NCBI GenBank assembly: GCA_015478655.1
Contig: JADMIJ010000009.1
Location: 1-64,000, forward strand
Source of the DNA: Acidimicrobiales bacterium
GTDB lineage: Bacteria > Actinomycetota > Acidimicrobiia > Acidimicrobiales > RAAP-2
DNA length: 64,000 nucleotides
Direction: 5' to 3'
The position numbers and the translations under genes are program-made. This document shows, piece after piece, positions 7,540-30,968 of the stretch. Below the pieces are notes generated by a model that was not told where the DNA came from, did no database searches, and saw only the letters and a list, made by a program, of their open reading frames with translations. Each line of letters opens with the position of its first letter. Position 1 is the stretch's first letter.

Positions 7540-8393
7540 CGGGGCTTGAAGGCGCCACCGATGGCCACCAGGGTCCGAGCGGGCTTCCCGTGGGCGATCT
7601 CCTCTCTGCCGGACCCGTCACGGTCGATCTCCCGGTGCCCGCCGCCGTGCTGGCCGTCGGCGCCCACCCCGACGACATCGAATTCGGATGCGGCGCCACC
7701 CTGGCCAAGTGGGCCGCGGCCGGGTCGGAGCTCCACTACCTCGTGCTCACCGACGGCTCCAAGGGAAGTTGGCGCCCCGACGCCGATATCCGCCAACTGG
7801 TGGCCGACCGCCGACAGGAGTGTCACGACGCAGCCGCGGTCGTCGACGGCATGCCGCATCGAACGACACCGCCCCCGGACCGGGTCTTCTTCCTCGAGCG
7901 GGTCGATGGCGAGCTCGAGAACGGCATCGACGAGCGGAGGGCTGTGGCCCGGCTCATCCGCCTGGTCCGCCCGACTGTGGTGCTGGGCCACGACCCGTGG
8001 CGACGGTACCGGCTCCATCCAGATCACCGGGCTGCGGGCTTTGTCACCGTCGATGCGCTCGTCGGGGCTCGCGACCGGAACTTCTTCACCGAACTGGGGC
8101 TCGAGCCCCATCGACCGGAGTCCCTTCTGCTGTGGGAGGCAGACCTACCCAATCACCTCGAGGATGCGAGGGGATTCGAAGAGGTGAAGATCGAGGCGCT
8201 GCTCTGCCATCACAGTCAACTGGAATCGACGATGGGCCTCGGGGACCTGGCACCGTCATCGGGCAGCTCGGGACCGGAGAGCGTCCCGCCGGGGTCCGAG
8301 TTCGCCTCGAAGGTGCTACGCCAACTGGCGACCCATGGATCGCTCGCCGGCTACCCATCGGCAGAGGCCTTCCGACTGATGACCGATCTCTGA
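7536..8393 (+). CDS. PIG-L / LmbE family zinc deacetylase
   Basis: 285-aa N-acetylglucosaminyl-type deacetylase. The zinc motif GAHPDDIEFGCGATLAKW and the downstream HPDHRAAG supply the metal ligands and general base. Relatives include MshB (mycothiol biosynthesis), mycothiol conjugate amidase and LmbE-like proteins of unknown substrate; the sequence does not decide between them. The GTG start overlaps the fbiD stop (GTGA), so the two are coupled. A strong hairpin follows at 8408. Confidence 0.82.
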   Translation: MTGLEGATDGHQGPSGLPVGDLLSAGPVTVDLPVPAAVLAVGAHPDDIEFGCGATLAKWAAAGSELHYLVLTDGSKGSWRPDADIRQLVADRRQECHDAAAVVDGMPHRTTPPPDRVFFLERVDGELENGIDERRAVARLIRLVRPTVVLGHDPWRRYRLHPDHRAAGFVTVDALVGARDRNFFTELGLEPHRPESLLLWEADLPNHLEDARGFEEVKIEALLCHHSQLESTMGLGDLAPSSGSSGPESVPPGSEFASKVLRQLATHGSLAGYPSAEAFRLMTDL

Positions 8394-8474: not shown

Positions 8475-8867
8475 CTACCGCCTCTTGGCCGTCCGCTTGA
8501 CGGCCTTGCGGGCCGGAGCCCTCTTCTTGGTCGTGCGCCTGGCCGTGGACTTCCGGGCTGCCGTCTTGCGGGCCGGAGCCTTCTTGGCCGTCCGCTTGCG
8601 GGCCGGAGCCTTCTTGGCCGTGCGCTTGGCCGTGGACTTCCGGGCTGCCGTCTTGCGGGCCGGAGCCTTCTTGGCCGTCCGCTTGCGGGCCGGAGCCTTC
8701 TTGGCCGTGCGCTTGGCGGCAGTTCGCTTCGCTGCAGTCTTACGGGCCGGAGCCTTGCGGGCCGGAGCCTTCTTCACCGCCTTTTTGGCTGTCGACTTAC
8801 GGGCCGCTGTCTTCTTGGCCGGAGCCTTGCGGACCGTCCTCCTGGCTGCTGCCTTCTTTACTGCCAT
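8475..8867 (-). CDS. Possible internally initiated histone-H1-like basic protein
   Basis: Inside the HU gene, at the junction between the HU domain and the basic tail, the minus strand reads CTAAGGAGGGAGTATCA and then ATG. This is a strong ribosome binding site seven bases before an in-frame methionine (residue 97 of the long form). Initiation there would give a free 130-aa Lys/Arg/Ala protein (AVKKAAARRTVRK and on) without the dimerising HU domain. The site falls exactly between domains. It could be chance, since Lys-Glu-Gly codons can mimic AAGGAGGG, or a true second start. Confidence 0.4.
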   Translation of the reverse strand: MAVKKAAARRTVRKAPAKKTAARKSTAKKAVKKAPARKAPARKTAAKRTAAKRTAKKAPARKRTAKKAPARKTAARKSTAKRTAKKAPARKRTAKKAPARKTAARKSTARRTTKKRAPARKAVKRTAKRR

Positions 8868-9155
8868 TGATACTCCCTCCTTAGGGTTCAACGCCGATTT
8901 GAACGCCGAACCGGTGGCGAACCGGACACCTTTCGACGCCGGGATACGTACCACTGCTCCAGTCCGTGGATTTCGACCCACTCGGGGGCCACGATCGGTC
9001 GGGTTGAATGTCCCGAATCCGATCACTGTGACCTTCCGTCCGGATCGAACCTCGGCGACGATCGTTTCGAACAGCACATCAACCACGTCTTCCACAACGG
9101 TGCGAGACGACATCGTCGACCCACTCACTGATTTGACGAGTTGAGATTTGTTCAC
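8475..9155 (-). CDS. hupB: HU-family nucleoid protein with histone-H1-like Lys/Arg/Ala tail
   Basis: The N-terminal HU domain (about 1-92) binds and bends DNA, with the arm motif RVGRNPRTGAVVRIPASKGV. The C-terminal 130 residues are a PAKKA/PARK-type basic tail, as in mycobacterial HupB/Hlp (226 aa here against about 205-215 there). The tail contains a 29-residue unit duplicated exactly in sequence (DNA period 87 bp). GTG at 9155, giving MNKSQLV, is chosen because GGAGGTGATC, fully complementary to the usual 16S tail, stands directly before it. GTG at 9161 lies inside that site. A second strong ribosome site and ATG occur inside the gene at 8867. Confidence 0.9.
   Translation of the reverse strand: MNKSQLVKSVSGSTMSSRTVVEDVVDVLFETIVAEVRSGRKVTVIGFGTFNPTDRGPRVGRNPRTGAVVRIPASKGVRFATGSAFKSALNPKEGVSMAVKKAAARRTVRKAPAKKTAARKSTAKKAVKKAPARKAPARKTAAKRTAAKRTAKKAPARKRTAKKAPARKTAARKSTAKRTAKKAPARKRTAKKAPARKTAARKSTARRTTKKRAPARKAVKRTAKRR
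8526..8700. repeat. Two 87-bp direct repeats in the HU tail
   Basis: An 87-bp unit occurs twice in tandem with only a few differences near its first edge, each encoding 29 residues of the basic tail (AKRTAKKAPARK and on). Such repeats expand or contract easily, so tail length is likely to vary between strains. Confidence 0.75.
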
Positions 9156-9445
9156 GATCACCTCCTCAGCGATACGTAACCCCTACTAGCAAAATGGGTT
9201 TTTGCGGCCAGGTCAAGGACCTTTGCGCGCGACGCGACCACGCGCCCACGCCGTGCGCGTGGCGCGCTCGAGAGTTCAGCGCGTCGTTGTGAACGAAACT
9301 CCGGCACGCTCACGATCGACCATGGACAGAAAACCGTTTGTTTGCAAGGATTATTTGGCATCGGCGCTCGTGCGCCGTGATCGTGCGCCTCGGGTGCGCT
9401 GCTACACATCGACGTCGAAAGCACCGATTGCGAGCCGCATATCCG
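9156..9445. other. Divergent hup-virD4 intergenic region with inverted repeats
   Basis: About 290 bases without a gene. It holds the hup promoter and a GC-rich near-perfect inverted repeat: arms at 9241-9251 and 9257-9266, one bulged base, five-base loop. An AT-richer stretch follows (9310-9360), leading to the VirD4-type gene. Hairpins beside relaxase and coupling-protein genes make this a candidate transfer origin, but no nic consensus was recognised. Confidence 0.4.
9187..9216 (-). promoter_or_regulatory. hupB: Candidate hupB promoter
   Basis: On the minus strand TTGACC is followed by 18 bases and TTGCTA, about 30 bases upstream of the GTG start and its ribosome site. The -35 element overlaps the small palindrome GGTCAAGGACC (9211-9221), which could be an operator. 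Confidence 0.45.
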
Positions 9446-10930
9446 ATGGAAAATAATTCTTCGTCAGTACCCTCCTCAGCCGCTACTTCGTGCCATCGCG
9501 CCGCATTGAGTGCATCGGCAGACGCGGACCACGGCGCGTATCTGGGGCACGATGAGCTCGGTTGGCACTTCGTCGAACCTCAGCATTCGGTGATGATCCT
9601 CGGTCCGCCGCGGTCGGGTAAGACGACATCGCTGATCATTCCCAATGTGTTGGCCAGCAACGGGGCGGTGGTGTCCACGTCGACCAAACCGGATGTCATG
9701 GCGGCGACCTTGTCGGCGCGTTCAGCACTCGGCACCTGCCTCCTGTTCGATCCGACCGGGTGGGTCGAACCACCCCGCGGGGTGCTCCCCCTCCGGTGGT
9801 CCCCGTTGCAGTCCTGCACCACATGGATGGGGGCGCTGGCCATGGCCCGGTCCCTGGTCGAGGTGGGGTCGCCGTCCGGCGCCACCGGGGGCCGGCGGGG
9901 CGATGGATCACACTGGAGCGAGCGCGCCCAGGCCCTGCTGGCACCACTGCTGCATGCCGCCGCCCTGGATGGTGCCACCATGCGCACCGTCCTGACCTGG
10001 GTCGATCGCCGACAAGCGCTGCCGGCCCAGCAGATTCTGGCCGGCGGGCCCCGTCGATCCACCGAGCTGGCCCGGAATCTGCTCGACGGGATCGCCGCCA
10101 CCGACGAACGGGAGCTCAGCGGCATCTGGTCCACGGCCTCGGGATCGCTCACTGCCTTCCGGTCAGACCATGCCCTCGAGGTCACCGCCGACCCGGACTT
10201 CGACCCGCCCCGCTTCGTGGGCTCGTCGGACACCATATTCATTGCCGCCCCGGCCCACCGCCAGAGCCTGGTCGCCCCGATGGTGGTGGGCCTCATCGAA
10301 GACATCCGACAGGCGTGCTACGCACGCAGCGCCCAACTCCCCCTCGGAGGCCGATCGGGTCCACCCGTCCTGCTGGCTCTTGACGAGGTGGCGAACATCG
10401 CCCCCCTCCCCGACCTGCCCTCGATGATCAGCGAGGGAGGCGGACAGGGCCTGGTCACGGTGGCGTGCCTGCAGGACCTCTCGCAGGCGCGGGATCGGTG
10501 GCCTGAGCGGGCGGACGGCTTTCCCTCCTTGTTCGGCACCACGGTGGTGCTCCCGGGCATCGGGGATGTGCGGACGCTCGAGGCCCTGTCCACGCTGGCC
10601 GGCGATGAGGAGATTCCCACCCGGACGGTCTCTGCCGGCCGGACCCTCACCGACCGGCCCATGGTCGACCTGTTCACCGGAGGCCGGCCGCAGCACGGCG
10701 AGAGCGTGTCGACATTGTGGCGAAGGCGGCTGCCCCCCGACCAGATCGCCCGCGGCCAACCCGGTCACGCGCTCGCCTTCGACCATCGCAATCGTCCCGC
10801 GTGGTTCCCTATGGCGCCCTCCCACGCCGTCGAACCATGGCGGACCCTGCGCGGCCTCCAACGCACAAGCCATCGACCGGAGCCGGCGCACGATCGATCG
10901 CGTCTGCCCGTGCCCGGCCTCGAGCGTTGA
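9446..10930 (+). CDS. VirD4/TraG-type conjugative coupling ATPase, soluble form
   Basis: 494-aa RecA-like motor of the type IV secretion coupling-protein family, which brings DNA-relaxase complexes to a transfer channel. Walker A GPPRSGKT is at 53-60, and Walker B ends LLALDEVANIAPLPDLP at about 309-325. The following ISEGGGQGL and TraM-recognition-like C-terminus fit TraG/VirD4. It lacks the N-terminal membrane helices of typical VirD4, as in some Gram-positive forms. ATG at 9446 is used. It is convergent with the relaxase gene, and no VirB4, VirB6 or other channel gene is in the window, so it may be a remnant or a minimal mobilisation pair. Confidence 0.8.
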   Translation: MENNSSSVPSSAATSCHRAALSASADADHGAYLGHDELGWHFVEPQHSVMILGPPRSGKTTSLIIPNVLASNGAVVSTSTKPDVMAATLSARSALGTCLLFDPTGWVEPPRGVLPLRWSPLQSCTTWMGALAMARSLVEVGSPSGATGGRRGDGSHWSERAQALLAPLLHAAALDGATMRTVLTWVDRRQALPAQQILAGGPRRSTELARNLLDGIAATDERELSGIWSTASGSLTAFRSDHALEVTADPDFDPPRFVGSSDTIFIAAPAHRQSLVAPMVVGLIEDIRQACYARSAQLPLGGRSGPPVLLALDEVANIAPLPDLPSMISEGGGQGLVTVACLQDLSQARDRWPERADGFPSLFGTTVVLPGIGDVRTLEALSTLAGDEEIPTRTVSAGRTLTDRPMVDLFTGGRPQHGESVSTLWRRRLPPDQIARGQPGHALAFDHRNRPAWFPMAPSHAVEPWRTLRGLQRTSHRPEPAHDRSRLPVPGLER

Positions 10931-10949
10931 CCGTTGGTGGATCGAGCGG

Positions 10950-12272
10950 TCATCGGGTCAGGTGATGGGACGGTTCACGCCGGTCCGCCCGTGAAGCCGG
11001 GTCTGTTCGACTCCGGCCGTGGTCGAGCTGCAGCCCGACCGTCGCAGGGGATCGGCCGACCCCGACGGCCCGGTCGCTACGGAGGGCCGGACCGGCCAGG
11101 ATGGCCGCGCTCTCTCGCTCCAGGGCCCGGGCCACCTCTCGGGCCGGCCATCGTCGCCCGGCGCCCATCGGCGGACCTGAGGCCTCTGCCATCCGCGAGG
11201 CGACGGACTCGACCACGCGTGCCGTCGCCCCGAGAGTGGATGCGGCCGCCACCACCGCCACCAGGTCACGCGGGGCCACCGTCCGGTTGCCATGGGCGAA
11301 CTCCCCCAGCCCGTCCCGCACCCGTTGGGGATCGATCTCGTTGCCGGCCTCCAGGTTCCGCTTGCTCCCGACCACCAGGGTCAAGTCGCCGAGGTCGAAC
11401 CCGAAGTCCGCGGCTCGCCGCTTCCACTCGAGCATCAACGATTCGACCGTGCGGGTGCGGTTCTTGTCGGGACGCGTGGCGTGGAACGCTCCGTGGCGGG
11501 ACGGGCGTTGCGACGGACCGGCCCGCGTGTACCGATACTCCTCCATGGCGGCCGAACGTTGCGAAAACAGTCGACGCAAACTCCCGGCCACACCGATCAC
11601 GTCGCCGAGACCCGAGGCACGCAGGTCCCAGGTGGCACCGATTCGCCCGCCCAGTTCGAGGCGGAGCCGGGCGTGGTACACGCCCCGTGCCGCGTGAGCG
11701 TGCGCATAGACCCGCCTGCTGTCCACCGCAGACCACGACCCGTCGACGCCCTGAGCCACGTTGGCCACCACCACGTGCGTGTGGAGGTGCGGATCGAGGG
11801 TCCGACTGGTGCGATGGACGAAATGACCCGACACCGCCCCCGTGGAGGGCAAGAGGCTGACATCTCCGCCCCGGGCCCGGCGCACGCCCACTGCCGCCCG
11901 TCCCAGGTAGTCGGTGGCGTCGTTCACCGCCTCCCGGTGACCGGCACCGACCTCAGTGGCGATCTCCTTCGGAGCCAGCAGGTGCAGGAGGCTCACCGAC
12001 TTGGGTGCGGCGAAGGTCAGGTCGTAGGCGGCCACGCTGCCAGCCCCGCGCCGGACCCGCAGCGACCTTCCGGACACCGGGTCCCGGCCGGCCAGCACCT
12101 CGGCAAAGGCCTGCGGCTCAACGGTGCCCCGCAGGCCCAGGCCGACGGATCCGCCGCCCGACCACATCCCCGGATCCTCGCCCGCCACCAGGGTCCCCTC
12201 CGCCCTACCGGGGACGAGGTCGTTCACGTAGTAGTGGTGGCCGCCCTCGCGGACCACATGGATTCTCAGCAC
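10950..12272 (-). CDS. MobF (TrwC/TraI)-family relaxase domain protein
   Basis: HUH endonuclease that would nick an origin of transfer and attach to the 5' end through tyrosine. The N-terminus has the tyrosine pair HHYYVND (residues 12-18), the family block DLTFAAPKSVSLLHLL (about 84-99), and the metal triad in LDPHLHTHVV (His162, 164, 166). At 440 aa it is only the relaxase part; the helicase domain of TrwC/TraI is absent and the C-terminus is basic and low in complexity. GTG at 12272 follows GGGAGGT by nine bases; the upstream ATG at 12308 has weaker support. The upstream stretch 12300-12360 is markedly AT-rich for this genome. Confidence 0.82.
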   Translation of the reverse strand: MLRIHVVREGGHHYYVNDLVPGRAEGTLVAGEDPGMWSGGGSVGLGLRGTVEPQAFAEVLAGRDPVSGRSLRVRRGAGSVAAYDLTFAAPKSVSLLHLLAPKEIATEVGAGHREAVNDATDYLGRAAVGVRRARGGDVSLLPSTGAVSGHFVHRTSRTLDPHLHTHVVVANVAQGVDGSWSAVDSRRVYAHAHAARGVYHARLRLELGGRIGATWDLRASGLGDVIGVAGSLRRLFSQRSAAMEEYRYTRAGPSQRPSRHGAFHATRPDKNRTRTVESLMLEWKRRAADFGFDLGDLTLVVGSKRNLEAGNEIDPQRVRDGLGEFAHGNRTVAPRDLVAVVAAASTLGATARVVESVASRMAEASGPPMGAGRRWPAREVARALERESAAILAGPALRSDRAVGVGRSPATVGLQLDHGRSRTDPASRADRREPSHHLTR

Positions 12273-12339
12273 GACCCGGGACCTCCCGCCCAGATCGTAC
12301 TGAATCATGATGTTTCAGACAATACCATATCTTTTTATG

Positions 12340-13344
12340 TCATTTGGAATCTGGATAACGCGCCAGGATCCGCGAGGCCGCATCGGCGGCCAGTGATTGG
12401 TACTCCGGGGGATCCACCACCCGGGCATCGGGGCCCAGGCGAAGCAGCAGGCGCTCCAGCCAGGCGTCTCCCCCCACGAAGAGCTCGAGCTCGACACGTC
12501 CGTCCACCGACACGGGAGGTCCGGTGGAGGGAACCGACTCGAGCAGCCAGGCCATGGCCGGGTCGAGGGAGATCCGCACTCTCCGGCTGTCGGGGCCCGG
12601 GACAAAGGGGTCGAACCCGGGGGAGCCGGCATCTCCCTGCCCCTCCCCACCGACTCCGCCACCCTCGCCGGGATCGACCGGTGGGCCGGCGACGCCGTCT
12701 CCGGCCTCTGGGTCTCCTGGAATCGCATCCGCCCCTCGGATGCGGTCGACCCGGAAACGCCGCAGGTCGCCGGCCGTGCTGCACCTGGCGTCGACATACC
12801 AGTGGCCCTGCGAGGCGAAGACCCGGACCGGCGCGATCTCCCGTTCGGTGACCCGATCGGTCGATGCCGAGTAATAGGAGATCGACAGCCGTTGGCCGGC
12901 GGCGGCCGCATCACGCACCAGCGGCAACAACTCCGGCGCGTCGAGCTCCACCGCGATCCCTTCGCCCCCCAAAGCCCGGTCGAGCTTGTCCAGGGCCCTG
13001 GACAGGGCCCCGCTCTCGTCGCTGCCGGAAACGGCAAGCAGGGCCCGGGCCGATGTGGCCAGGGCGAAGCCCTCGGACGGGCTCAGCCGGCGCGGCCGGG
13101 CCAGCGCCGTGCCCACCCGTGTGGACACCGTGGTGTCGGTGACCACGATCTCCATGAGCTGGTCCGGGGTATAGGGAGGAACACCGCAGCACGCGGCCAT
13201 CTCGAGCTCGGTGACCAGCGCCTCGGGAGTGAGCTCGAAGCGGGCGGCGATCTGGTCGATCGGAGCCTCGCCGACCTGGGCCAGCCAGGCCAGGATGGCC
13301 AACAGGCGACGGAGGCGGACGGCGGTGTCGGCCCTGGCGGTCAC
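12340..13344 (-). CDS. pafC: WYL-domain transcriptional regulator, PafC-like
   Basis: 334-aa regulator with an N-terminal winged-helix part (about 1-70), a WYL ligand/ssDNA-sensing domain centred on SISYYSASTDRVTEREI and GHWYVDARCSTAGDLRRFRVDR (about 155-205 region), and a C-terminal WCX extension. Between them is a Gly/Asp/Pro-rich insert (about 205-245). PafB and PafC form a heterodimer that activates DNA-damage genes in mycobacteria. Here the GTG overlaps the pafB stop (GTGA), so the pair is coupled as in other actinobacteria, but no Pup-proteasome or tatA gene is adjacent. Confidence 0.85.
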   Translation of the reverse strand: MTARADTAVRLRRLLAILAWLAQVGEAPIDQIAARFELTPEALVTELEMAACCGVPPYTPDQLMEIVVTDTTVSTRVGTALARPRRLSPSEGFALATSARALLAVSGSDESGALSRALDKLDRALGGEGIAVELDAPELLPLVRDAAAAGQRLSISYYSASTDRVTEREIAPVRVFASQGHWYVDARCSTAGDLRRFRVDRIRGADAIPGDPEAGDGVAGPPVDPGEGGGVGGEGQGDAGSPGFDPFVPGPDSRRVRISLDPAMAWLLESVPSTGPPVSVDGRVELELFVGGDAWLERLLLRLGPDARVVDPPEYQSLAADAASRILARYPDSK

Positions 13345-14318
13345 CGGCTGGACCTGTCGCCGGCTCCACTGGCCCGGCGGGCTCCACTGTCCACCAGGCG
13401 CTCGACGACCGCGGCGCGCACGGATTCTGGGCCCAACACCACGGCATGATCCAACAGTTCGAGGACCCAGAGAAGGAGCGCGTCAACATCGGTCACCGGG
13501 AGCCGCACCACCACCCCGCCGTTGTCCCGGTGCTCCACGACCGCATCGGCGCCGAGCTCCGCCACCACCCGTCCCGACTCGGCACCGTCGATGAGCACGT
13601 CCACCTCGATCTCCTCCCCAGCCCCGAACTGCCAGGGGTCGCGCCCGAAGGTCGAGTCGATGTCGAAGTCCGACGGCACCTGGGCCGACGACGGCTCACC
13701 GAGCTCGGGCACGCCCTCGATCCGGTCGACGCGGAAGGTCCGGGCCTCGCCCCGGTCGCGATCGAACCCGACGAGGTACCAATTGCCGGTCCGGAACCGG
13801 AGACCGGCCCCGTCCACGTGGCGCCTCTTCCCGCGGTAGTCGAACTCGACGGAGGCGCCCTGGCGGATGGCGTCGAACAGGACGGCCAGGGCCGGCAGTC
13901 CGTCGATCAGCCGCAGATCCACCAGCGGGGCTGCTGATTCGCGGCTCGTCGACTCCTCGCTGGCGCCCAATTTCAACAGGGCATCCTGGCCGATAGGCTC
14001 GCCCAGGTGGACTCCGGCGACGGCCAAGTTCAGTGCAGCCTGCTCCTCCGGCTCCAGACCGAGGTCGGGAAGGTAGTAGGAGTCGGGGTCAACCCGATAC
14101 CCGAGTTGCTCCTCGCCGCCGATGGGCACCACGATCACCGGCACCCCCTCGTCCCGGAGCAGCCGCTTGTCTCGCTCGAACGCCTGGCGCCGGGCCCCGT
14201 GGGCGTCCGGGTACCCCGGCACCCGGTTGGCGATCTCACGCAGGCTCAGCGGGTGCGGTGTGTCGAGGAGCACCAACAGCAGGTCAGTCACCCGTTCAAG
14301 CCGATCGAGACGTTGCAC
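13341..14318 (-). CDS. pafB: WYL-domain transcriptional regulator, PafB-like
   Basis: 325-aa partner of PafC. The N-terminus VQRLDRLERVTDLLLVLL leads into the winged helix (FERDKRLLRDEGVPV, about residues 44-58). The WYL domain has VEFDYRGKRRHVDG and GNWYLVGFDRDRGEARTFRVDR. The WCX domain ends the protein. GTG at 14318 is preferred: it matches where PafB proteins begin, and TAGATT lies seven bases upstream, suggesting leaderless initiation. TTG at 14327 and ATG at 14384 are in frame, but the latter lies inside ctaG. Confidence 0.85.
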   Translation of the reverse strand: MQRLDRLERVTDLLLVLLDTPHPLSLREIANRVPGYPDAHGARRQAFERDKRLLRDEGVPVIVVPIGGEEQLGYRVDPDSYYLPDLGLEPEEQAALNLAVAGVHLGEPIGQDALLKLGASEESTSRESAAPLVDLRLIDGLPALAVLFDAIRQGASVEFDYRGKRRHVDGAGLRFRTGNWYLVGFDRDRGEARTFRVDRIEGVPELGEPSSAQVPSDFDIDSTFGRDPWQFGAGEEIEVDVLIDGAESGRVVAELGADAVVEHRDNGGVVVRLPVTDVDALLLWVLELLDHAVVLGPESVRAAVVERLVDSGARRASGAGDRSSR

Positions 14319-19869: not shown

Positions 19870-20411
19870 CTCAAGGAGCGAAGCTGTTCTGCTGCCACAC
19901 CATGCTGGCCAGCCCGGTGGCGGAGCTGCACTGCGCGGCGGTGGCGCCGGCCCACTTGCCGTACCACACACCAGCGGCGACCGGAACGGATCCAGCGGCC
20001 GTGCTGTTGGTGTACTGGACCGGGTTGGCCGGAGTATTGGTGATCGCCTGGGTATTGTCGGCAATCCCCCAGCAGTTGTTCGACTTCGAGAACGCCACCA
20101 ACACGACGCCATTGCCGTCTGCGGAGGTGTACAGGGAGATGGTCGACTGCGCCCCGCTGTTGGCAGTGGTGTAGCTCAGGCTGGGCTCGGCCGAGGACAA
20201 CGTTGCCGCGTTCAGGGTGGTGTACGTCTGACCGGCCTGCTGGAACGCAGCCTTGGCGTTGACCAGGGCGGTGTTCAGGTTGGACTGCGAGGCCCGGTCG
20301 TTCGCCGACTTCGTCACACCGAGGAAGGTCGGGATGGCGATGGCGAGCAGAATGGCCAGGATCAGCAGCACGACCATGAGCTCGATGAGGGTGAAACCGG
20401 CGTCTTCACCG
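19870..20411. repeat. 542-bp perfect direct repeat, copy A (pilin coding)
   Basis: Identical base for base to 20690-21231 (offset 820). It spans exactly from the pilin stop codon to the codons just before the prepilin cleavage site. Perfect third-position identity means recent duplication or ongoing gene conversion. Confidence 0.95.
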
Positions 20412-20497
20412 GCCTGGTGGCGGAGGGTGCGGTCCCACACATCGGGTCGCGATGGGCGGTGGGCAGAAATTGTGGCAGGCGTCACGACGATAGTCAC
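19871..20497 (-). CDS. Type IV prepilin, copy 1 (long leader)
   Basis: 208-aa major-pilin-like protein. The class III signal ends EDAG before FTLIELMVVLLILAILL: cleavage between Gly34 and Phe35 would leave a 174-aa mature pilin with Glu5 and a 20-plus-residue hydrophobic helix. Two cysteines near the C-terminus (NNCWG, AQCSS) can form the D-region disulfide. The mature part is identical to copy 2, but the 34-residue leader is unusually long and is homologous to the start of the neighbouring membrane protein. GTG at 20497 has no ribosome binding site, so expression is probably lower than, or regulated differently from, copy 2. Confidence 0.88.
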   Translation of the reverse strand: MTIVVTPATISAHRPSRPDVWDRTLRHQAGEDAGFTLIELMVVLLILAILLAIAIPTFLGVTKSANDRASQSNLNTALVNAKAAFQQAGQTYTTLNAATLSSAEPSLSYTTANSGAQSTISLYTSADGNGVVLVAFSKSNNCWGIADNTQAITNTPANPVQYTNSTAAGSVPVAAGVWYGKWAGATAAQCSSATGLASMVWQQNSFAP

Positions 20498-20513
20498 GTT
20501 TGTTCATCGTGAC
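20493..20513. repeat. Inverted repeat over the start of pilin copy 1
   Basis: GTCACG - nine bases - CGTGAC, spanning the GTG start at 20497. It matches the arrangement at 19718-19739. Confidence 0.45.
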
Positions 20514-20600
20514 GAACGATGTCGGGCTTGAGTCTTTGTTTCACCGCTGAGATCGTGATCCACAACGCTGCGGTCAATAACGGTGGATCACGAGTCAACG

Positions 20601-20634
20601 GAGAAGGCCCCGTCCAGATGGACGGGGCCTTCTC
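20601..20634. terminator. Hairpin terminator between the two pilin genes
   Basis: A perfect 15-bp stem (GAGAAGGCCCCGTCC) with a four-base loop, 57 bases after the stop of pilin copy 2 on the minus strand. There is no U-tract. It should end the highly expressed copy-2 message and insulate copy 1. Confidence 0.75.
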
Positions 20635-20689
20635 GTCGGTCACACCGGTGAGAATCCGGTACTCCCTGCTAGATAGTCACTCCGTCAGA

Positions 20690-21231
20690 CTCAAGGAGCG
20701 AAGCTGTTCTGCTGCCACACCATGCTGGCCAGCCCGGTGGCGGAGCTGCACTGCGCGGCGGTGGCGCCGGCCCACTTGCCGTACCACACACCAGCGGCGA
20801 CCGGAACGGATCCAGCGGCCGTGCTGTTGGTGTACTGGACCGGGTTGGCCGGAGTATTGGTGATCGCCTGGGTATTGTCGGCAATCCCCCAGCAGTTGTT
20901 CGACTTCGAGAACGCCACCAACACGACGCCATTGCCGTCTGCGGAGGTGTACAGGGAGATGGTCGACTGCGCCCCGCTGTTGGCAGTGGTGTAGCTCAGG
21001 CTGGGCTCGGCCGAGGACAACGTTGCCGCGTTCAGGGTGGTGTACGTCTGACCGGCCTGCTGGAACGCAGCCTTGGCGTTGACCAGGGCGGTGTTCAGGT
21101 TGGACTGCGAGGCCCGGTCGTTCGCCGACTTCGTCACACCGAGGAAGGTCGGGATGGCGATGGCGAGCAGAATGGCCAGGATCAGCAGCACGACCATGAG
21201 CTCGATGAGGGTGAAACCGGCGTCTTCACCG
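20690..21231. repeat. 542-bp perfect direct repeat, copy B (pilin coding)
   Basis: Exact copy of 19870-20411; see that entry. The flanks diverge at once on the leader side, and after a few bases on the stop-codon side. Confidence 0.95.
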
Positions 21232-21287
21232 ATATCTCCCGCAGCGTCACGCCTGTCATTAAGGCGCCCAATTACAGATGAAAACAT
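20691..21287 (-). CDS. Type IV prepilin, copy 2 (major pilin)
   Basis: 198-aa prepilin with a 24-residue leader (MFSSVIGRLND to EDAG) and then the same 174-aa mature pilin as copy 1, from FTLIEL to NSFAP. The basic leader is a normal prepilin signal. GAGGAGG lies about six bases before the ATG, a strong ribosome site, and a hairpin terminator follows. It sits just downstream of pilC and is the probable main structural subunit of the fibre. The N-methylated Phe1 helix would pack in the filament core and the small Ser/Thr/Ala-rich head would be exposed. Confidence 0.92.
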   Translation of the reverse strand: MFSSVIGRLNDRRDAAGDIGEDAGFTLIELMVVLLILAILLAIAIPTFLGVTKSANDRASQSNLNTALVNAKAAFQQAGQTYTTLNAATLSSAEPSLSYTTANSGAQSTISLYTSADGNGVVLVAFSKSNNCWGIADNTQAITNTPANPVQYTNSTAAGSVPVAAGVWYGKWAGATAAQCSSATGLASMVWQQNSFAP

Positions 21288-21584
21288 TTGAAGCCTCCTC
21301 GTAGTTATTGATGCATCAATATGTGGATACCTGGATTGGTGTCCGGTAGCTGCATCGTCATGACTTCGGCGTACCTTTAGGACATTTTTAGAGATTCTTT
21401 CGGCCTCTTTCGTTTAGCGGCAGCGAGCCCACACTGGAATCAGAGGAGGCAAGCGTTTGCTCGCTTGACCATGTTCAGCTGGACGTACTTCCGCCGGAGT
21501 TCCTGCAGCCGCGGTTAGGACAGCAGGTACGCGGCGCGCCAAACTTGGCCGGTGCCTCTGCCTCCAACCCGTGAATGCTGGATA
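21288..21584. other. Intergenic region upstream of the major pilin
   Basis: 297 bases between pilC and pilin copy 2 without a convincing gene. It includes an AT-rich part (21300-21415) with several T-runs, the likely place for the pilin promoter. No riboswitch or clear hairpin was recognised. Confidence 0.5.
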
Positions 21585-22814
21585 TCAGTTGTGGATAAGT
21601 TTGATATAGCTGAACATGGGAAGGTACAGAGAGATGACCATGAGGCCCACACCGATGCCCATAACCACGGTCAAGAGGGGCTCGAGCAGAGCAGTCAGGT
21701 TGGCCACCGTCACCTCGACCTCCTGGTCGTAGAATTCGCCGACCTTTTTGAGCATGCCATCCAATGCACCGGTCTGTTCGCCTACCTCGACCATTTGGAC
21801 GACAAGGGTTGGAATCACATCTTCGTGTTCCCGCAGCGGGTCGGCCAGTGGTCGTCCCTCCCTCACGCCATTCTTCGCCTCCAGGAGGACGTCGCCCACC
21901 GTTCGGTTACCCGCCGTGTCGGAGCAGATGTCCAGTGACTCGAGGATGGGTACTCCGGAGCTGATCAAAGAAGCCAACGTTCCAGTGACGCGGGCGAGGG
22001 CCACCTTGTGGAACAGGGGACCGAAAACGGGAGGCTTGAGCATCCACCGATCCCACCGTCGCCGTCCGTTGTCCGTGGCGATCCACTTTCGCACGCCGAT
22101 GATCCCACCGACAATGACACCGATGATTACCAACACCCAGGGGCTGGTGATCGTCTGCGACACCTTGATGAGGATCTGGGTCGGCAATGGCAGCTTTCCA
22201 CCCAGCGTCTTGAAGAGATTCTGAAACACGGGAACGATGAACACGATCATGGCGGTGAAGATGACCACCATGACGCTCAACACCACGGCGGGATACGTCA
22301 TGGCCGAGCGAATGGTCTTATTGAGTTGTGCCTGCTTCTCGATCGTGTTCGCCAAACTGCCGAGGACCTCGTCGAGGTTACCGCCGACTTCACCGGCTTG
22401 GATGAGCGTGCAGTAGAGATTGGAGAAGATCTTCGGGTGTTTGGCACAGGCAATCGAGAGTGAGGAGCCGTGTTCGAGATCCAAGCGGACTTCATTCAGC
22501 ACCCGAGCCAGTGTCGGATTCTCCACCTGCGCCGCGAGAATGCCGAGGGAACGAACGACCGACAGTCCGGAGTCGACCATGGTCGACAGCTGTCGAGTGA
22601 TGACGGCAATCTCTCGAAGCTTCACCCGATCAGATAGTCCGGGGATTTTGATCTCCGTCTTGAGGTTCACAGCTGACTTCGGGGATACGGAGATCGGCAT
22701 ATATCCCATCTCGCGCAACCGCCGCACGACAAGCGCCATGCTGTCGCCTTCGAGTTGTCCTTCGACCAGGTCGCCAGCCTTGTCTCGGACCTTGTAGTCA
22801 AATGTGAGTGCCAC
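21585..22814 (-). CDS. pilC: Type IV pilus inner-membrane platform protein PilC
   Basis: 409-aa T2SSF-family protein with two homologous cytoplasmic helical domains: about 65-190 with RQLSTMVDSGLSVVRSLGIL, and about 270-395 with GTLASLISSGVPILESLDI. There are three membrane helices, near 165-190, 220-240 and 375-400. It is the platform on which PilB and PilT act to add or remove pilins. GTG at 22814 (MALTFDYKVRDKAG) is normal for the family. It lies 40 bases after the PilT-like gene in the same direction. Confidence 0.93.
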   Translation of the reverse strand: MALTFDYKVRDKAGDLVEGQLEGDSMALVVRRLREMGYMPISVSPKSAVNLKTEIKIPGLSDRVKLREIAVITRQLSTMVDSGLSVVRSLGILAAQVENPTLARVLNEVRLDLEHGSSLSIACAKHPKIFSNLYCTLIQAGEVGGNLDEVLGSLANTIEKQAQLNKTIRSAMTYPAVVLSVMVVIFTAMIVFIVPVFQNLFKTLGGKLPLPTQILIKVSQTITSPWVLVIIGVIVGGIIGVRKWIATDNGRRRWDRWMLKPPVFGPLFHKVALARVTGTLASLISSGVPILESLDICSDTAGNRTVGDVLLEAKNGVREGRPLADPLREHEDVIPTLVVQMVEVGEQTGALDGMLKKVGEFYDQEVEVTVANLTALLEPLLTVVMGIGVGLMVISLYLPMFSYIKLIHN

Positions 22815-22854
22815 AATTCCCCGCTTCGTCGATCAAATGGATAGTTGGATGAGG

Positions 22855-24507
22855 TCAGGTGTTGAGGTGGTTTCGGAGATCTTCCTCATTGGCAGAGCGG
22901 TCATAGGCGATGCTTTCGGAGATCACTCCCTCTTTGACTAGCTTCGCCAATCCCTGGTCCATGGTCTGCATGCCGAATGAACCGCCCACCTGCATGAGTG
23001 AATAGATCTGGTGGGTCTTCGATTGGCGGATCAGGTTGCGGATGGCCGCGGTGCACATCAACACCTCCGAGCAGGGGACACGCCCGCTGCCGTCAGCGTT
23101 GACGATCAATTGTTGGGTGACCACGCCCTCGAGCGTCCCGGCCAACATCACTCGAATCTGCTCTTGTTGGTTGGTCGGAAACACGTCAATGACTCGGTCA
23201 ATGGTCTGGGGGGCGTCTTGGGTGTGGAGCGTGGCGAACACCAGGTGACCAGTTTCTGCAGCCGTCAGCGCCGTCGAGATTGTCTCCAGATCGCGGAGCT
23301 CGCCCACCAGGATCACGTCGGGATCTTGGCGAAGGACTCGTCTCAGCGCCTCGGCGAACGAGTTGGTGTCCTCCCCAATTTCCCTTTGTGTGACGATGGA
23401 TTGCTTGTGATCGTGGAGAAACTCAATCGGGTCCTCTACTGTCACGATGTGCAAGGGCTTGGTCCGGTTGATGATGTCGATCAGCGAAGCCAGCGTGGTC
23501 GACTTTCCAGAACCGGTGGGGCCGGTGACGAGCACCAGCCCTGTCCGAAGGTCGGTGAAGGACTTGATAGATTCCGGCAAGCCCAACGAGTCGAATTCCG
23601 GCATCTCGTGAGGGATGGGACGCAAAGCGGCGGCGACAGTCCCGCGCTGCATGGAGACATTGACGCGGAACCGTCCGATCCCGGCGATGGAGTGCGAGGT
23701 GTCCAGTTCGTTCTCAGCTTCGAATCGCTCCCGCTGCGACGCCGGGAGGATGCCGAATACCATGTCCCGGAGTGTCTCGTTGTCGAGTACGGGACACCCC
23801 TCGATCGGCCGGATGGCGCCGTGCACCCTGATCGAGCCCGGCATCTGCGCGGTGAGATGGAGATCGGACGCTCCCACGGAGACTGCGAAGCGGAGCAAGT
23901 CGTCGATGTGGAGTGCCACGTTACCGTTGGTGGCCGCCGCCGGTATGCCATGCTCGAGCAAGTTCTGGACAGTTGGTACGCCACTGGGGCGCTCTGGGGC
24001 AGCCCCATTTGCTACCGCCATCGAATCGACGGTGGCAATTTGTGTCGTTGCGGAGCCTCCACCGGCCCTCAGTGACTGCGTGATCAGGACCGGATCGGCG
24101 AGTACCGGATTGATGGGACACCCGGCCCTCGAGGAAACCACTTCCAGGTCCTCCTGAGAGGGTGGCTCGCCAAACGCTACGGCCAGGACACCGTTGTCGA
24201 TCTGGAGCGCCACAGCCTCGAATTCGTGAGCAACATCCGCGGGAAGCGCCTGGGCTGCATCACCGCTGGGAGTGACTGCCCCCAGATCGACGGCGGGCAG
24301 CTGAGCCAGATGGGCGAGAGCTCCGACCACCACGCCCGGAAGGGCCAAGTTCCGGCTGATGAGCAGAACTGCCAGCGGCTCTCCCGTGGCACGCGATTCC
24401 GCCAGTAAGGGCGCGAGATTCGATTCGGTCTCGTAGCCGCCTTGTACCAGCGCCTGTGCCAGTCTGGTCGACCATTCACTACGCGTCTCTGCCGTGACCG
24501 GGCTCAT
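22855..24507 (-). CDS. PilT-like retraction ATPase with N-terminal MshEN-like extension
   Basis: 550-aa hexameric secretion ATPase. About 185 N-terminal residues look like a GspE/MshEN-type domain (LAPLLAESRATGEPLAVLL). Then comes the PilT body: LRFAVSVGASDLHLTAQMPGS, Walker A GPTGSGKSTTL (Lys about 335), the Asp box, Walker B DPDVILVGELRDLETI and His box GHLVFATLHT. Body motifs favour PilT over PilB, and the PilB tetracysteine is absent. PilT proteins are usually about 350-370 aa, so the extension is unusual. ATG overlaps the pilB stop (ATGA). A second, canonical PilT is at 30983. Confidence 0.87.
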   Translation of the reverse strand: MSPVTAETRSEWSTRLAQALVQGGYETESNLAPLLAESRATGEPLAVLLISRNLALPGVVVGALAHLAQLPAVDLGAVTPSGDAAQALPADVAHEFEAVALQIDNGVLAVAFGEPPSQEDLEVVSSRAGCPINPVLADPVLITQSLRAGGGSATTQIATVDSMAVANGAAPERPSGVPTVQNLLEHGIPAAATNGNVALHIDDLLRFAVSVGASDLHLTAQMPGSIRVHGAIRPIEGCPVLDNETLRDMVFGILPASQRERFEAENELDTSHSIAGIGRFRVNVSMQRGTVAAALRPIPHEMPEFDSLGLPESIKSFTDLRTGLVLVTGPTGSGKSTTLASLIDIINRTKPLHIVTVEDPIEFLHDHKQSIVTQREIGEDTNSFAEALRRVLRQDPDVILVGELRDLETISTALTAAETGHLVFATLHTQDAPQTIDRVIDVFPTNQQEQIRVMLAGTLEGVVTQQLIVNADGSGRVPCSEVLMCTAAIRNLIRQSKTHQIYSLMQVGGSFGMQTMDQGLAKLVKEGVISESIAYDRSANEEDLRNHLNT

Positions 24508-26993
24508 GCGACCACCCGCAGCACTTCTTCGATGGTGGTCTCACCGTCGAGGGCCTTGCGCAGCCCGCTCTGGCGCAGTGTCGTCATGCCTTGGGCCACT
24601 CCGACCCTGTGAATCTCTTCCACCGATCCTCCTTCAATAATCGTGCGTTCGATCTCTTCGCTCATGGGGAGCAGTTCGGCCAGGGCCTTTCGGCCCCGGT
24701 AACCGGTATTGGCGCAGGCTGAACATCCTGCGGCGCGGTACACCGTGGAAATTCCTCCCATGGCCTCTACCTCCTCCAGCTTCCAACCTGCGCTGACGAA
24801 CTCCGACTCCGTCGGCTCATAGGCCTGTTTGCAGTGGGCGCACAGGCGCCGGGCCAGGCGCTGGGCAAGCACTCCCGAGACTGAGGACGTGACCAGAAAC
24901 GGCTCGAGACCCATCTCGATCAATCGCATCGGGGTCGAGGCAGCATTGTTGGTATGAAGCGTTGCCAGCACCATGTGGCCAGTGAGGGCAGCCTCAATGG
25001 CGATGACGGCGGTCTCCTTGTCCCGTATCTCGCCGACGAGGACGATGTCAGGGTCGGAGCGCAGGATGGCGCGCAGGGCGGAGGCGAAGTTCAGGCCGGC
25101 CTTCAGGTTGAGCTGAACCTGGTTCACTCCCTTCAGAGGGAGCTCGACCGGATCCTCCACGGTGATGATGTTCTTCTCTGGCGAGTTGAGGGCGGTCAGG
25201 GTGGTGTAGAGGGTGGTGGACTTGCCGGATCCGGTCGGTCCGGTGACCAGGATGGTCCCGTACGGTTTGGTGTAAATACTCTCGTAGGTCTTCAAGAGAT
25301 GCTCTTCGAAGCCCAGGTCGGCGAAGCCGAGGACAACGCTGGACTTGTCCAGTACGCGCATGACGACCTTCTCGCCGTAGATCGTCGGTAGCGTCGCCAT
25401 GCGCAAGTCGATGCCCTTGCTTCCCACGTTGAGTGAGATCCGTCCGTCCTGGGGGATCCGATGCTCGGCAATGTTCATGTCGGCCATCACCTTCAACCTT
25501 GTGGTGACGGCCGGAGCAATCGTCCGAGGAGCTGTTGAGACGTCATGAAGGACGCCGTCGATCCGGTACCGGATCCGAAGGTCCTTCTCCGTGGGCTCGA
25601 TGTGGATGTCAGAGGCACGTTCATTGAGCGCTTGGAGAATGAGCAGATTGACATAGCGAACGATCGGGGCCTCTTCTGTGACGGCCTGAATGTCATCGAC
25701 AGACGTGTCAGGCCCGGATCCATCGAATCCGAGCGACGCCTCCATGGCCATGTCGCTGGCGTCGCCACTGTTGAAGGCGCGTCCGATGTAGGCGGCGATC
25801 TGGGACCTGGTGGCGACCACCACGATGAAGTTCCGACCGATGATGGTGCGGAGATCGTCCATGGCGAACACATCGGTGGGGTTTGAAGCAGCCACCACGG
25901 GCACACCGTTGTCATTGGCGATGACAATCACGTTGTGGTGCCGGGCGGTTGCCTCGGGGATCGTCCCGGCCTCAGAGAAATCCAGGCCGACGATGTCGAG
26001 GTCGACAAACTCGAGCCCCATCTCTTGAGCCATCCCCCACATCAGGTCGGCTTCGGTGACGAGGCCCTGCGCCGTCAGGATCCGGGCGACGCTCTGCCCG
26101 GTTCGGTCGTGCTCGTCGAGCACCCCCTGCATGTCGTCGAGCGAAACCCTCTCCCCCTCCACGAGGGCCCTCGCCAGTGGCGGGAACATCGCCGCGTCGT
26201 TCGACGTCGTGCCCTCTGGGGCATCAGCCGGCTGTTCCTCCTGCTGCTTCTCCTCGTAGGTGGCCACCACTTCGGCCACAAAGTCGGCGGCCTGCGTTGT
26301 CGTGTCGAGGCTCGGCTCTTCTCGGTCCTCTCGTTCCTCTCGGACCTGTGGAACCTGTTGATCCTCCTGCGTGGTGCGCGCCAGTTCGGCGAGTTCTTCA
26401 ACGCTGGCGGTCAGCGCACTGTCGAAGGACGGAGGCTCAGGGACCGGCGCGTCGGGGACAGGCGAGTCGGGAGCCTCCGTGATCTGGACGCTCGACTCCG
26501 CTTGGAGGGTTGACAATTCGTCCTCGAGGGTCGACATGGCGTCGGCTGCGAAATCAATCGTTTCCATGGCGTCCGCCGAGCCCACGGCGGCCGGGTCTCC
26601 GTCGGCATCGAGGAGATCCAGGGCTCTCGATTCATCGGTCCCGACCCCGTTCGAATTCTCATCGGCCGAGAAGTTCTCGAAGACGAGCCCGTCGTCGTCT
26701 GGACCGAAGAGTTGATCGAGGTAGGTAATGATCTGGTCCCTGGAGGCGACCACGGAGATGAAATCACGACCAATGGAGGCGCGGACGGTGTCCTGGGCAT
26801 TGAAGTCATCGGGATCCGAGGTTGCGACCACCGGGGTCCCGAATTTCCGCTTGATGGCTACGACTTTGTGCCGCCGGGCCAGGGACGCGGGCAGAATTTC
26901 GCCCGCGGTCGGATCGACCCCGTAGGTGTCGAGGTCGACAAATTCGAGGTCATGGTCTCGCGCCACCCTCCGGATGGTGTCGACGTCGGTCAC
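24504..26993 (-). CDS. pilB: Type IV pilus extension ATPase PilB
   Basis: 829-aa assembly ATPase. It has two MshEN-like N-terminal modules: one at about 1-95 (LEFVDLDTYGVDPTAGE) lacking its usual first helices, and a fuller one at about 280-420 (LEFVDLDIVGLDFSEAG). An acidic linker separates them. The ATPase core has Walker A GPTGSGKSTTL (Lys about 591), Walker B DIVLVGEIRDKET and ATLHTNNA, and a zinc tetracysteine (CAHC, then CSACANTGYRGR) near 717-775. MshEN domains can bind c-di-GMP, so extension may be second-messenger controlled. GTG at 26993 follows GGAGGAGAG; the open frame extends 56 codons further. Confidence 0.92.
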   Translation of the reverse strand: MTDVDTIRRVARDHDLEFVDLDTYGVDPTAGEILPASLARRHKVVAIKRKFGTPVVATSDPDDFNAQDTVRASIGRDFISVVASRDQIITYLDQLFGPDDDGLVFENFSADENSNGVGTDESRALDLLDADGDPAAVGSADAMETIDFAADAMSTLEDELSTLQAESSVQITEAPDSPVPDAPVPEPPSFDSALTASVEELAELARTTQEDQQVPQVREEREDREEPSLDTTTQAADFVAEVVATYEEKQQEEQPADAPEGTTSNDAAMFPPLARALVEGERVSLDDMQGVLDEHDRTGQSVARILTAQGLVTEADLMWGMAQEMGLEFVDLDIVGLDFSEAGTIPEATARHHNVIVIANDNGVPVVAASNPTDVFAMDDLRTIIGRNFIVVVATRSQIAAYIGRAFNSGDASDMAMEASLGFDGSGPDTSVDDIQAVTEEAPIVRYVNLLILQALNERASDIHIEPTEKDLRIRYRIDGVLHDVSTAPRTIAPAVTTRLKVMADMNIAEHRIPQDGRISLNVGSKGIDLRMATLPTIYGEKVVMRVLDKSSVVLGFADLGFEEHLLKTYESIYTKPYGTILVTGPTGSGKSTTLYTTLTALNSPEKNIITVEDPVELPLKGVNQVQLNLKAGLNFASALRAILRSDPDIVLVGEIRDKETAVIAIEAALTGHMVLATLHTNNAASTPMRLIEMGLEPFLVTSSVSGVLAQRLARRLCAHCKQAYEPTESEFVSAGWKLEEVEAMGGISTVYRAAGCSACANTGYRGRKALAELLPMSEEIERTIIEGGSVEEIHRVGVAQGMTTLRQSGLRKALDGETTIEEVLRVVA

Positions 26994-27367
26994 CTCTCCT
27001 CCATCGGCAGACTGGAGGGCGAGATTGAACCCGAATCCAATTGTTCGGTTTTCGGACCCGTCTCGCCGACCCGGATGCTTGAAGAGACCGCTTCTCGACT
27101 GGGAGGCGGTGCTACGGTGCCTCGGCTCTGGCCGATCTCCAAGCTGTGAGCCGTGGTCCAAGCCGCGTAGGGGACGGCCAGGAGTCAGGAGCGGAGGATG
27201 TGGCGGTCAGCCATCGAGATCTCAAGGCTTGCAGTCCCATCCGACAACGTCCGTCTGGCTGCGAGGCATGCGTCTCCGAGGCGGCCGTCCCTCCGCTTGC
27301 CAGATGGCGAAAGGCTTGCCCGACGGCGGACGGCCTCACATGGCTTGATGGCATTAATTCGTAGCTA
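26994..27367. other. Divergent pilB-prepilin peptidase intergenic region
   Basis: 374 bases with no convincing gene, though the pilB frame stays open through part of it. It should contain divergent promoters. ATTAAT/TAATTC boxes lie 7-15 bases before the peptidase ATG at 27368, and no ribosome site precedes it. Confidence 0.45.
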
Positions 27368-28180
27368 ATGGACTCTCATCATTTGTCACTATCTTTTGTG
27401 ATTCTGGCCGCGGGACTCGCCGGTCTGTTGGTTGGCTCATTCCTGAACGTCGTCGTCTACCGAATTCCTCGAGGGCTCTCCGTCTCAGGTCCGCGTTCGT
27501 TCTGCCCGACATGCAACCGGCAGCTGACGTGGTGGGAGAACGTGCCGGTGGTGTCGTGGGTTGCCTTGCGGGGCCGGTGTCGAACCTGTCACCAACTGAT
27601 CTCCATTCGCTATCCGCTGGTGGAGCTGGGAACCGGGGCCGCCTTCGCTCTGGTGACTTGGGGTTGGGATGGAACCATCGTCTCCGCCGCCTACTGTGTG
27701 CTGGCCGCCACCATGGTTGCTGTCAGCCTCATCGAATACGACGGCAAGCGCGCCCCCTTGTCGGTCGCAGCCATCGGTACGGGGATCGCCCTGGTCATCA
27801 TCTTCGTGGGAGCCGGACGGCAGGGGCACTGGTGGTTGGTCGGTGGATCTGTTATCGGTGCCGCGGTGGGCCTTGTTGCCGTTTCACTGCTCCGGGCCCG
27901 CGATCCAGAGTGCCTGGATCCAAGGGAATTCGGCCGCAGTACCCTCGTGGTCGCCGGTTGCTGGTTCGGCGGCCTGGGTTTGCGTCCCACTGCCTTCGGA
28001 GCGGTGACGTGGGTCGTCGTCTACTTCCTCTGCATGCTGGGTGTCTGGACGACGCGTCAAAGAACTGCAGCCAGCGGTGGCGTTATCGCTACCGGTCGGA
28101 GCGCGGTGCCGTTGCTGAACGTGCCGCTGGTCTCCGCGCTAGCGCTGGCTATGCCGGTCGCCCTCATTGCCCGAGGCTGA
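27368..28180 (+). CDS. Prepilin peptidase-like membrane protein with atypical active site
   Basis: 270-aa membrane protein of the PilD/GspO family. The first helix and VGSFLNVVVYRIPRGLS are characteristic, and the two Cys pairs CPTC and CRTC (about 47-79) form the zinc-binding loop of the N-methylating subtype. The peptidase half, however, reads SLIEYDGKRAPLS where the family has a LID.D..LPD-type stretch. No GxGD motif occurs at the second aspartate; the aligned place reads EFGRSTLVVAG. It may be a diverged or methylation-only enzyme, with another peptidase elsewhere. It is divergent from pilB, so a pilus role is likely. Confidence 0.75.
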   Translation: MDSHHLSLSFVILAAGLAGLLVGSFLNVVVYRIPRGLSVSGPRSFCPTCNRQLTWWENVPVVSWVALRGRCRTCHQLISIRYPLVELGTGAAFALVTWGWDGTIVSAAYCVLAATMVAVSLIEYDGKRAPLSVAAIGTGIALVIIFVGAGRQGHWWLVGGSVIGAAVGLVAVSLLRARDPECLDPREFGRSTLVVAGCWFGGLGLRPTAFGAVTWVVVYFLCMLGVWTTRQRTAASGGVIATGRSAVPLLNVPLVSALALAMPVALIARG

Positions 28181-28772
28181 CGGCGCCAACAGGCTGGCCG
28201 GACATCTCTGTAGCCCGTTGTTGCTCCTGTAGGCACACCAGCAGGCACCAGCTCTCTGGATGCACAAGGCGTCGGCACGAGCACGGATGCGCCGACTGGC
28301 CGAACGGGCGCCCTCAAGTCAGGCCAGTGAGTGCAATTCCGATGCCTCCGATCTGCGGTTGTCGGGATGGATCGATTCACCGATTGGAGTCGAGGGTTCT
28401 GCCCACCAGCCAATGACCATTGACAGCCCACTGGGACCACCGACATTGAAGCTTGATGACCGCCGCCTGGTGTCCGGTTTTGATGCATCGCTGACGGCCT
28501 TCAACCGACAGATTCCGATACGCCGATTGGCCTGGGACGAGGCGTTCGAGACGGAGTCGAGCTCGCCGCTGTCCAAAGCCGTTGTGCAACCTCCGGCGAC
28601 GATTATCAACGTGTGCCGGATTGATCACAACGGATTCGTCGCTGTTCTCCCAGGCCATCAACCGGTAGAGTCGTCTCGGCCGTTCTAGTTCCCACCCCAG
28701 TGGCTCGCAACTGTCACCCAACCGAAATGAAATCGAGGGTTGAATCTCATCAATTCGTGGGATACTGACTCC
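28181..28772. other. Gene-poor region after the prepilin peptidase
   Basis: About 590 bases. Open frames exist on both strands (for example 28260-28688 plus, 28319-28609 minus), but none shows a recognisable domain, good ribosome site or convincing composition. It may hold a decayed gene. Confidence 0.4.
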
Positions 28773-29775: not shown

Positions 29776-29847
29776 GTCGTCCCAAAGCAGGCTGTCGCCC
29801 CTCGGGTCCGGGTTCGACCGTCTCTTGACGCCCAGGACTAAGCACCA

Positions 29848-30333: not shown

Positions 30334-30456
30334 GGGCAAACGCCGTGGATCACGGACCACAGTGTATGGGAGAAGGGTCCTCGAGGGCGGCATTGGCACT
30401 CTCTCAGGTAGACTGCCAACTCCAAGCATGTCTCGCCCTGAGAGGAATGCCCCGCT

Positions 30457-30864: not shown

Positions 30865-30968
30865 CTCCTCGAGTTGTGCGACCGCGATCGACCAGCGTCG
30901 ACGGACCAGGTACGAATCGTGGCCGGGACGGATTGAATTGGTCCTCGCCAATTGGTAGAGGGTGCCCG

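Follow-up and report, generated by a model that had tools for sequence, protein, structure and literature searches.

The chromosomes of one large clade of Acidimicrobiales almost certainly carry domesticated conjugation genes. Two of these, encoding a soluble VirD4-type ATPase and a short MobF relaxase, lie side by side in the 64,000-nucleotide stretch of Acidimicrobiales DNA analyzed here (the window), and we give a probability of about 0.5 to the reading that they are the DNA-processing half of a domesticated machine that would nick chromosomal DNA and pass one strand between cells. Sequence comparison showed that the MobF nickase has kept its active site intact and has lost first the activity of its helicase and later the helicase itself, and that a soluble VirD4-type motor lies beside it. 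By the same evidence, the pair is vertically inherited at a fixed chromosomal address and under purifying selection, an unlinked and equally conserved channel operon co-occurs with the ATPase, and the relaxase is tightly linked to pafBC. We infer the transfer of DNA itself and put DNA exchange as the function at about even odds; the machine is possibly regulated by damage.

Comparisons were made with a sample of 120 related genomes, of which 73 belong to the same family (the source genome included) and 47 to 47 other families of the order. The ATPase gene (9446 to 10930, plus strand) encodes a 494-residue VirD4/TraG-type protein (PF02534, E 2.6e-20; PF12696, E 1.6e-18) of what we term the core type, the type found in this pair. 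Its open reading frame opens at a TTG at 9338, and homology begins at the ATG at 9446, which is likely the start. The relaxase gene (10950 to 12308, minus strand) encodes 452 residues of TrwC fold, with strong matches to PF08751 (E 1.6e-62) and NF041492 (200.8 bits against a cut-off of 100). These matches bore out the description of the two genes as convergent neighbors in an earlier note on this DNA. The gap between them (10931 to 10949) is 19 bp, and in relatives the genes are usually about 0 to 65 bp apart or overlap.

The ATPase is RecA-like and, in keeping with coupling proteins, has Walker A and B motifs and a TraG-D C-terminal domain; its Walker A and LDE-A-N motifs are near-invariant among 80 homologues. 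The AF2 model (pLDDT 88.7) had Cag-beta and TrwB as the best matching folds in the PDB, with Foldseek E values of 1e-16 to 1e-12, and HerA-type motors scored lower. The fold and nucleotide motifs are common to the soluble ATPase and these coupling proteins, but it lacks their N-terminal membrane domain, and a second, anchored VirD4 is encoded in the T4SS operon discussed below. No N-terminal transmembrane or hydrophobic segment was found in the model or in 75 of 76 homologues; the anchor characteristic of coupling proteins is missing, as the earlier note had stated.

Divergent from the ATPase gene is one encoding an HU-type nucleoid protein whose tail is rich in Lys/Arg (8475 to 9161, minus strand; PF00216, E 2.1e-23), an arrangement that recurs in one subclade and several other families. 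Beyond it lies a PIG-L deacetylase gene (7590 to 8393, plus strand; PF02585), which synteny marks as a conserved chromosomal flank and which we took as a boundary marker outside the system. The divergent promoter region between the HU and VirD4 genes (9162 to 9445) holds a GC-rich inverted repeat with 12-nt arms at 9225 to 9236 and 9256 to 9267 (92%). The repeat had been called strong and the segment from 9190 to 9300 suggested as an oriT. The arms exist, but their fold is better than those of shuffled sequences by just 2 SD, with 7 of 200 shuffles as good, and the closest relatives do not share the repeat; all that they conserve is the HU promoter-proximal side and a short AT-rich stretch close to the ATPase. 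With the candidate hairpin weak and unconserved, we rejected an oriT at 9190 to 9300; this hairpin was the sole candidate examined, and it leaves no supported oriT or nic site. No tRNA was found in the window and no integrase among the annotated neighbors of the pair, the base composition of which is close to that of its surroundings.

The active-site residues of the window relaxase are Tyr26/27, H165, H174, H176, and H178, and its model matches TrwC (1omh) with a TMt of 0.90 over the relaxase domain. The catalytic P(H/Q)xHxH motif is kept in 80/80 relaxases examined, and the catalytic Tyr26 (Y28 in stop-to-stop numbering) in 62 of 65 family members. The HUH fold, double tyrosine, and three-histidine site are common to these proteins and the MobF relaxases TrwC and TraI of R388 and F. 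In contrast to TrwC and TraI, which carry a helicase required for transfer, the relaxases of the whole clade have a dead helicase or none. Domain searches revealed no helicase domain or P-loop in the window relaxase, confirming that it is the HUH part only. A helicase P-loop following the HUH domain was found in 0 of 76 core relaxases, as against 6 of 6 non-core, element-type relaxase frames scored, which represent five genes since two frames came from the same gene. Nine core relaxases outside the family retain 420 to 900 residues after the HUH domain, and four of them (G093, G099, G109, and G118) have a dead but recognizable AAA_30 domain. The loss of the P-loop in all, together with these dead remnants, indicates that the helicase was inactivated early and deleted later in the family. 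The MobF helicase has been described as required for plasmid transfer (PMC12857230), and its loss here would therefore need a substitute. A narrowly worded literature search gave no match for a helicase-less MobF relaxase.

Upstream of the relaxase gene are two genes for WYL regulators, pafC (12340 to 13344, minus strand; HTH_PafC PF19187, WYL, and WCX) and pafB (13341 to 14318, minus strand; WYL PF13280 and WCX), the start of the latter at 14318 being read from the sequence. Given the 31-bp gap between pafC and the relaxase gene and the 4-bp overlap of pafB and pafC, the three form one tight minus-strand cluster headed by pafB, suggestive of co-transcription. The relaxase gene is likewise third in this cluster in relatives, with a median gap of 43 bp; it lies less than 100 bp after pafC in 47 of 61 genomes, and the adjacency is seen across families. 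The earlier note had merely pointed to PafBC next door, and the link proved stronger than claimed. In mycobacteria, PafBC is switched on by ssDNA (PMC11804915). A search of the window for the mycobacterial PafBC P1 promoter motif gave nothing beyond chance, and none near pafB or the ATPase gene.

A type IV pilus cluster adjoins pafB in the window. In small genomes that we inspected, such as L084, tldD/pmbA lie close behind pafBC and leave no room for it. Since the pilus cluster is missing there and the pair and T4SS are kept, the pilus was rejected as an obligate partner and left out of the system.

The core-type ATPase was found in 69 of the 73 family genomes; 67 family loci were read out, and at 65 of them the relaxase is its convergent neighbor, the other two being contig ends or having a relaxase detected only by profile. 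The gene order F5mann-F16-F12-F6-PIGL-(HU)-VirD4> <Relax <PafC <PafB is kept across the family. This synteny, flanked by chromosomal genes to either side, is the opposite of a pair present in a single strain between element ends. The full order is found also in family f21 (G092), and approximately 14 further families retain parts of the locus. Where the pair is split (G116, G110, G104, G080, and G099), the relaxase gene remains with pafBC, and the ATPase gene is found on the F5/F6 side wherever the contig extends far enough to tell. The G103 genome has the ATPase, the T4SS operon, and, about 7 kb from pafBC, a 684-aa relaxase with its tyrosines and histidines intact. A second collection, in which the isolate Aciditerrimonas ferrireducens stands beside Acidimicrobiaceae/Acidimicrobiales MAGs recovered from peat, permafrost, lakes, and mine waters, shares members with the 120-genome set and gave the same picture, with the convergent pair at 54 of 80 loci (82 with the two G103 loci added); many of the remainder are contig ends or split loci. 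When contigs were scanned for loci, an alignment query gave matches and a single-protein query gave none.

The core-type ATPase was found only in this clade, scoring about 230 bits or more inside it and at most 198 outside in class and phylum samples, a gap that disregards partial genes. At best, plasmid matches were 35 to 37% identical to the ATPase and 44% identical to VirB4. Pairwise distances for the ATPase and relaxase correlate with those for chromosomal neighbors (r 0.71 to 0.83) much as the neighbors do with one another (0.70 to 0.87), and dN/dS was 0.06 to 0.23 for the ATPase and 0.13 to 0.47 for the relaxase. Genomes of only 1.4 to 2.3 Mb still keep the genes. Support for deep branches of the relaxase tree was low, and the tree position is uncertain for a G087 relaxase whose gene lies beside the T4SS operon, divergently oriented.

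The pair had been called isolated, with no channel genes. This holds within the window, but the search of the genome for VirB genes that had been proposed revealed a core T4SS operon with VirB4 on contig C40, as well as a separate, element-like conjugation region with a full-length relaxase on contig C239. The C40 operon encodes DUF6112, an SCO6881-family membrane protein, an SCO6880-family protein (253 bits against a cut-off of 60), VirB4, and a membrane-anchored VirD4. The DUF6112 protein is considered VirB2-like and the SCO6881-family protein, which at 37.6 bits is below its cut-off, VirB6-like, both assignments being weak. The VirD4 of the operon has an N-terminal hydrophobic segment in most genomes. 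Like the pair, the operon has a fixed address, ROK-amidase-LuxA-P450-[T4SS]-HK-RR, in family f1 and other families.

Outside the family, the core ATPase and core VirB4 were found together in 14 of the 47 genomes and never apart (14/14 versus 0/33), with a Fisher p of 3e-12, or 1e-10 when the divergent G103 VirB4 is left out, for genomes that are not independent; the co-occurrence may represent one evolutionary event. Within the family, G034 is without the ATPase and VirB4 and has at most a relaxase fragment at a contig end. In G007 the 5' end of the relaxase gene has been replaced at a recombinase-bearing insert, the ATPase gene is frameshifted, and core VirB4 was not found at 98% completeness. 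In all, core VirB4 went undetected in six pair-bearing family genomes (G001, G007, G013, G025, G038, and G071), some of which are incomplete.

A further association was seen with ComEC (PF03772), which is absent from 73/73 family genomes, including the source genome, and from 14/14 other core-bearing genomes, all from other families. Of the other 33 families, 29 have ComEC, and some of the absences were deduced from this tally and the members it lists. The core ATPase and T4SS are thus confined to lineages without ComEC, with no overlap in the 47 families. This exclusion may likewise stem from one evolutionary event, and replacement of ComEC is unproven. Literature searches for the loss of ComEC in Acidimicrobiia, and for genes of conjugal transfer in Acidimicrobium ferrooxidans, turned up no paper.

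We propose that upon DNA damage PafBC would express the relaxase, which would nick chromosomal DNA and stay attached to the 5' end. The soluble ATPase would take over, or make up for, the strand movement once provided by the lost helicase and hand the strand to the membrane VirD4-VirB4-VirB6 channel, by which single-stranded chromosomal DNA would reach other cells and serve in repair or recombination. A relaxase acts on DNA already in the cell, which makes export or exchange between cells likelier than import of free DNA.

By analogy, the nearest functional parallel would be the Ced and Ted systems of Sulfolobales and Thermoproteales, which are likewise conjugation apparatuses domesticated in the chromosome, with VirB4, VirB6, and VirB2-like parts (PMC9905601). 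Here also the core VirB4, VirB6-like, and VirB2-like genes, the last two weakly assigned, are chromosomal and vertically kept. Ced is induced by DNA damage and linked to repair (PMC9905601), for which the PafBC linkage would be the counterpart. Ced and Ted are, however, archaeal, lack a relaxase, and import DNA, whereas here the clade has kept a MobF relaxase along with two VirD4 ATPases. As of 2023, no conjugation apparatus domesticated for DNA transfer was known beyond the two archaeal groups (PMC9905601). Among bacteria, the GGI of Neisseria gonorrhoeae and ComB of Helicobacter are also non-plasmid uses of a T4SS, in the release of chromosomal DNA or the uptake of DNA, but the GGI is a genetic island whose relaxase is of the MOBH type, and ComB lacks VirD4 and takes up DNA (PMC12857230). 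Mycobacterial distributive conjugal transfer is likewise an exchange of chromosomal DNA in actinobacteria, but it employs type VII secretion and no T4SS (cited in PMC9905601).

We consider it fairly unlikely that the relaxase and soluble ATPase instead serve as an intracellular repair or replication device that processes damaged or stalled DNA without feeding a T4SS. The position of the relaxase gene directly downstream of pafC, the sensing of ssDNA by PafBC (PMC11804915), the solubility of the ATPase and the lower-scoring likeness of its fold to HerA-type motors, and the six genomes with the pair and no detectable core VirB4 are all in keeping with such a device. Against it are the strict co-occurrence of core ATPase and VirB4 outside the family, the joint decay in G007, and the coupling proteins that are the closest folds of the ATPase.

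The strongest warning against DNA exchange comes from the cmdABCDEF operon of Streptomyces (SCO4126-4131), likewise a core chromosomal operon encoding VirB4-, SCO6880-, and SCO6881-type proteins, which functions in sporulation and the segregation of chromosomes and leaves plasmid transfer unaffected (PMC2782261). A segregation or development apparatus of this kind, with a T4SS-like operon moving DNA across a septum or membrane and the relaxase as an accessory, would account for the VirB4, SCO6880-, and SCO6881-family homologues in the core operon, cmdB, cmdC, and cmdD resembling SCO6878, SCO6880, and SCO6881 (PMC2782261). We nonetheless find it improbable, as the cmd operon is described without a relaxase or VirD4 (PMC2782261), whereas here a relaxase co-occurs with the operon and its catalytic residues and two VirD4 ATPases are kept.

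Export of effectors by a Gram-positive T4SS is known from Streptococcus suis 89K, yet a core T4SS that secretes protein effectors here and has nothing to do with the relaxase and soluble ATPase is very unlikely given that a conserved nickase and a second coupling ATPase track with the system. Although the gene types, the helicase loss, and the decay in one genome (G007) would suit a decaying remnant of an integrative or mobilizable element, that origin is scarcely credible in the face of an address and flanks fixed across many families rather than a sporadic distribution in varying insertion contexts, purifying selection and invariant active sites, the lack of a tRNA in the window and of close plasmid relatives, and a synteny that could be reconciled with it only if parallel insertions had struck one site repeatedly. 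The earlier note had offered an element remnant, a mobilizable unit, or a domesticated system for DNA movement or repair; the first two fell to the fixed address, and the third was supported, because synteny with chromosomal flanks, neighbor-like divergence, and purifying selection all run counter to an element remnant.

To our knowledge, bacterial conjugation machinery almost always belongs to mobile elements. We raise, tentatively and as a doubtful extension of the domesticated DNA-exchange machine, that damage-regulated chromosomal conjugation, derived from a captured plasmid machine, took over the gene exchange of the clade upon loss of ComEC-dependent transformation, which would make it a relaxase-driven bacterial counterpart of Ced. 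If true, this would be a bacterial case of domestication with a defined route to the single strand, the piece missing in the archaeal systems. The prediction could be tested in cultured species such as Aciditerrimonas ferrireducens and Acidimicrobium ferrooxidans, and the clade itself is a large one, at home in soil and fresh water.

Across the 47 other families of the order that were compared (genomes G073-G119), ComEC, the DNA-uptake channel of competence (PF03772), showed zero overlap with the core relaxase/VirD4/T4SS system. The former was present in 29 families and the latter in 14, while 4 had neither.

Adjoining pafB is a type IV pilus cluster (window 19871-34828) encoding two N-methyl pilins, PilC (21585-22814), two PilB-type ATPases (22855-24507 and 24504-26993), a PilT-type ATPase (30983-32098), PilM (32391-34100), and PilO (34097-34828). 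The genome carrying this cluster is without ComEC, and some of the family's small genomes apparently lack the cluster at this pafB-side position. A 228-aa HU protein, encoded at window 8475-9161, has a long tail rich in Lys/Arg/Ala, likewise seen in mycobacterial HupB-like proteins; because its repeats are in phase, a long spurious ORF lies over the gene on the opposite strand.

The relaxase-ATPase neighbourhood occurs in two arrangements, since genome G109 (extracts L093 / L240) has the tandem order PafB>PafC>Relax>VirD4> rather than the convergent one. In genome G007, an insert of approximately 4 kb, with a large serine-recombinase-type gene (extract L110, 9519-11108), separates pafC from a truncated relaxase.

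Examination of the source genome (G000) revealed a separate, element-like conjugation region on contig C239 (extract L067, 22001-42000, reaching 44496). Its relaxase is a full-length MobF with the P-loop GQAGTGKS, and close relatives of this relaxase are present in G037 and other genomes; the region also encodes VirD4, VirB4, and an SCO6880-family protein. Genome G183, whose family is without the core pair, encodes a VirB4 fairly near the core type (354 bits; G183:C1:1087170-1088381, extract L286), which could belong to an element or be a relative of the ancestral system.
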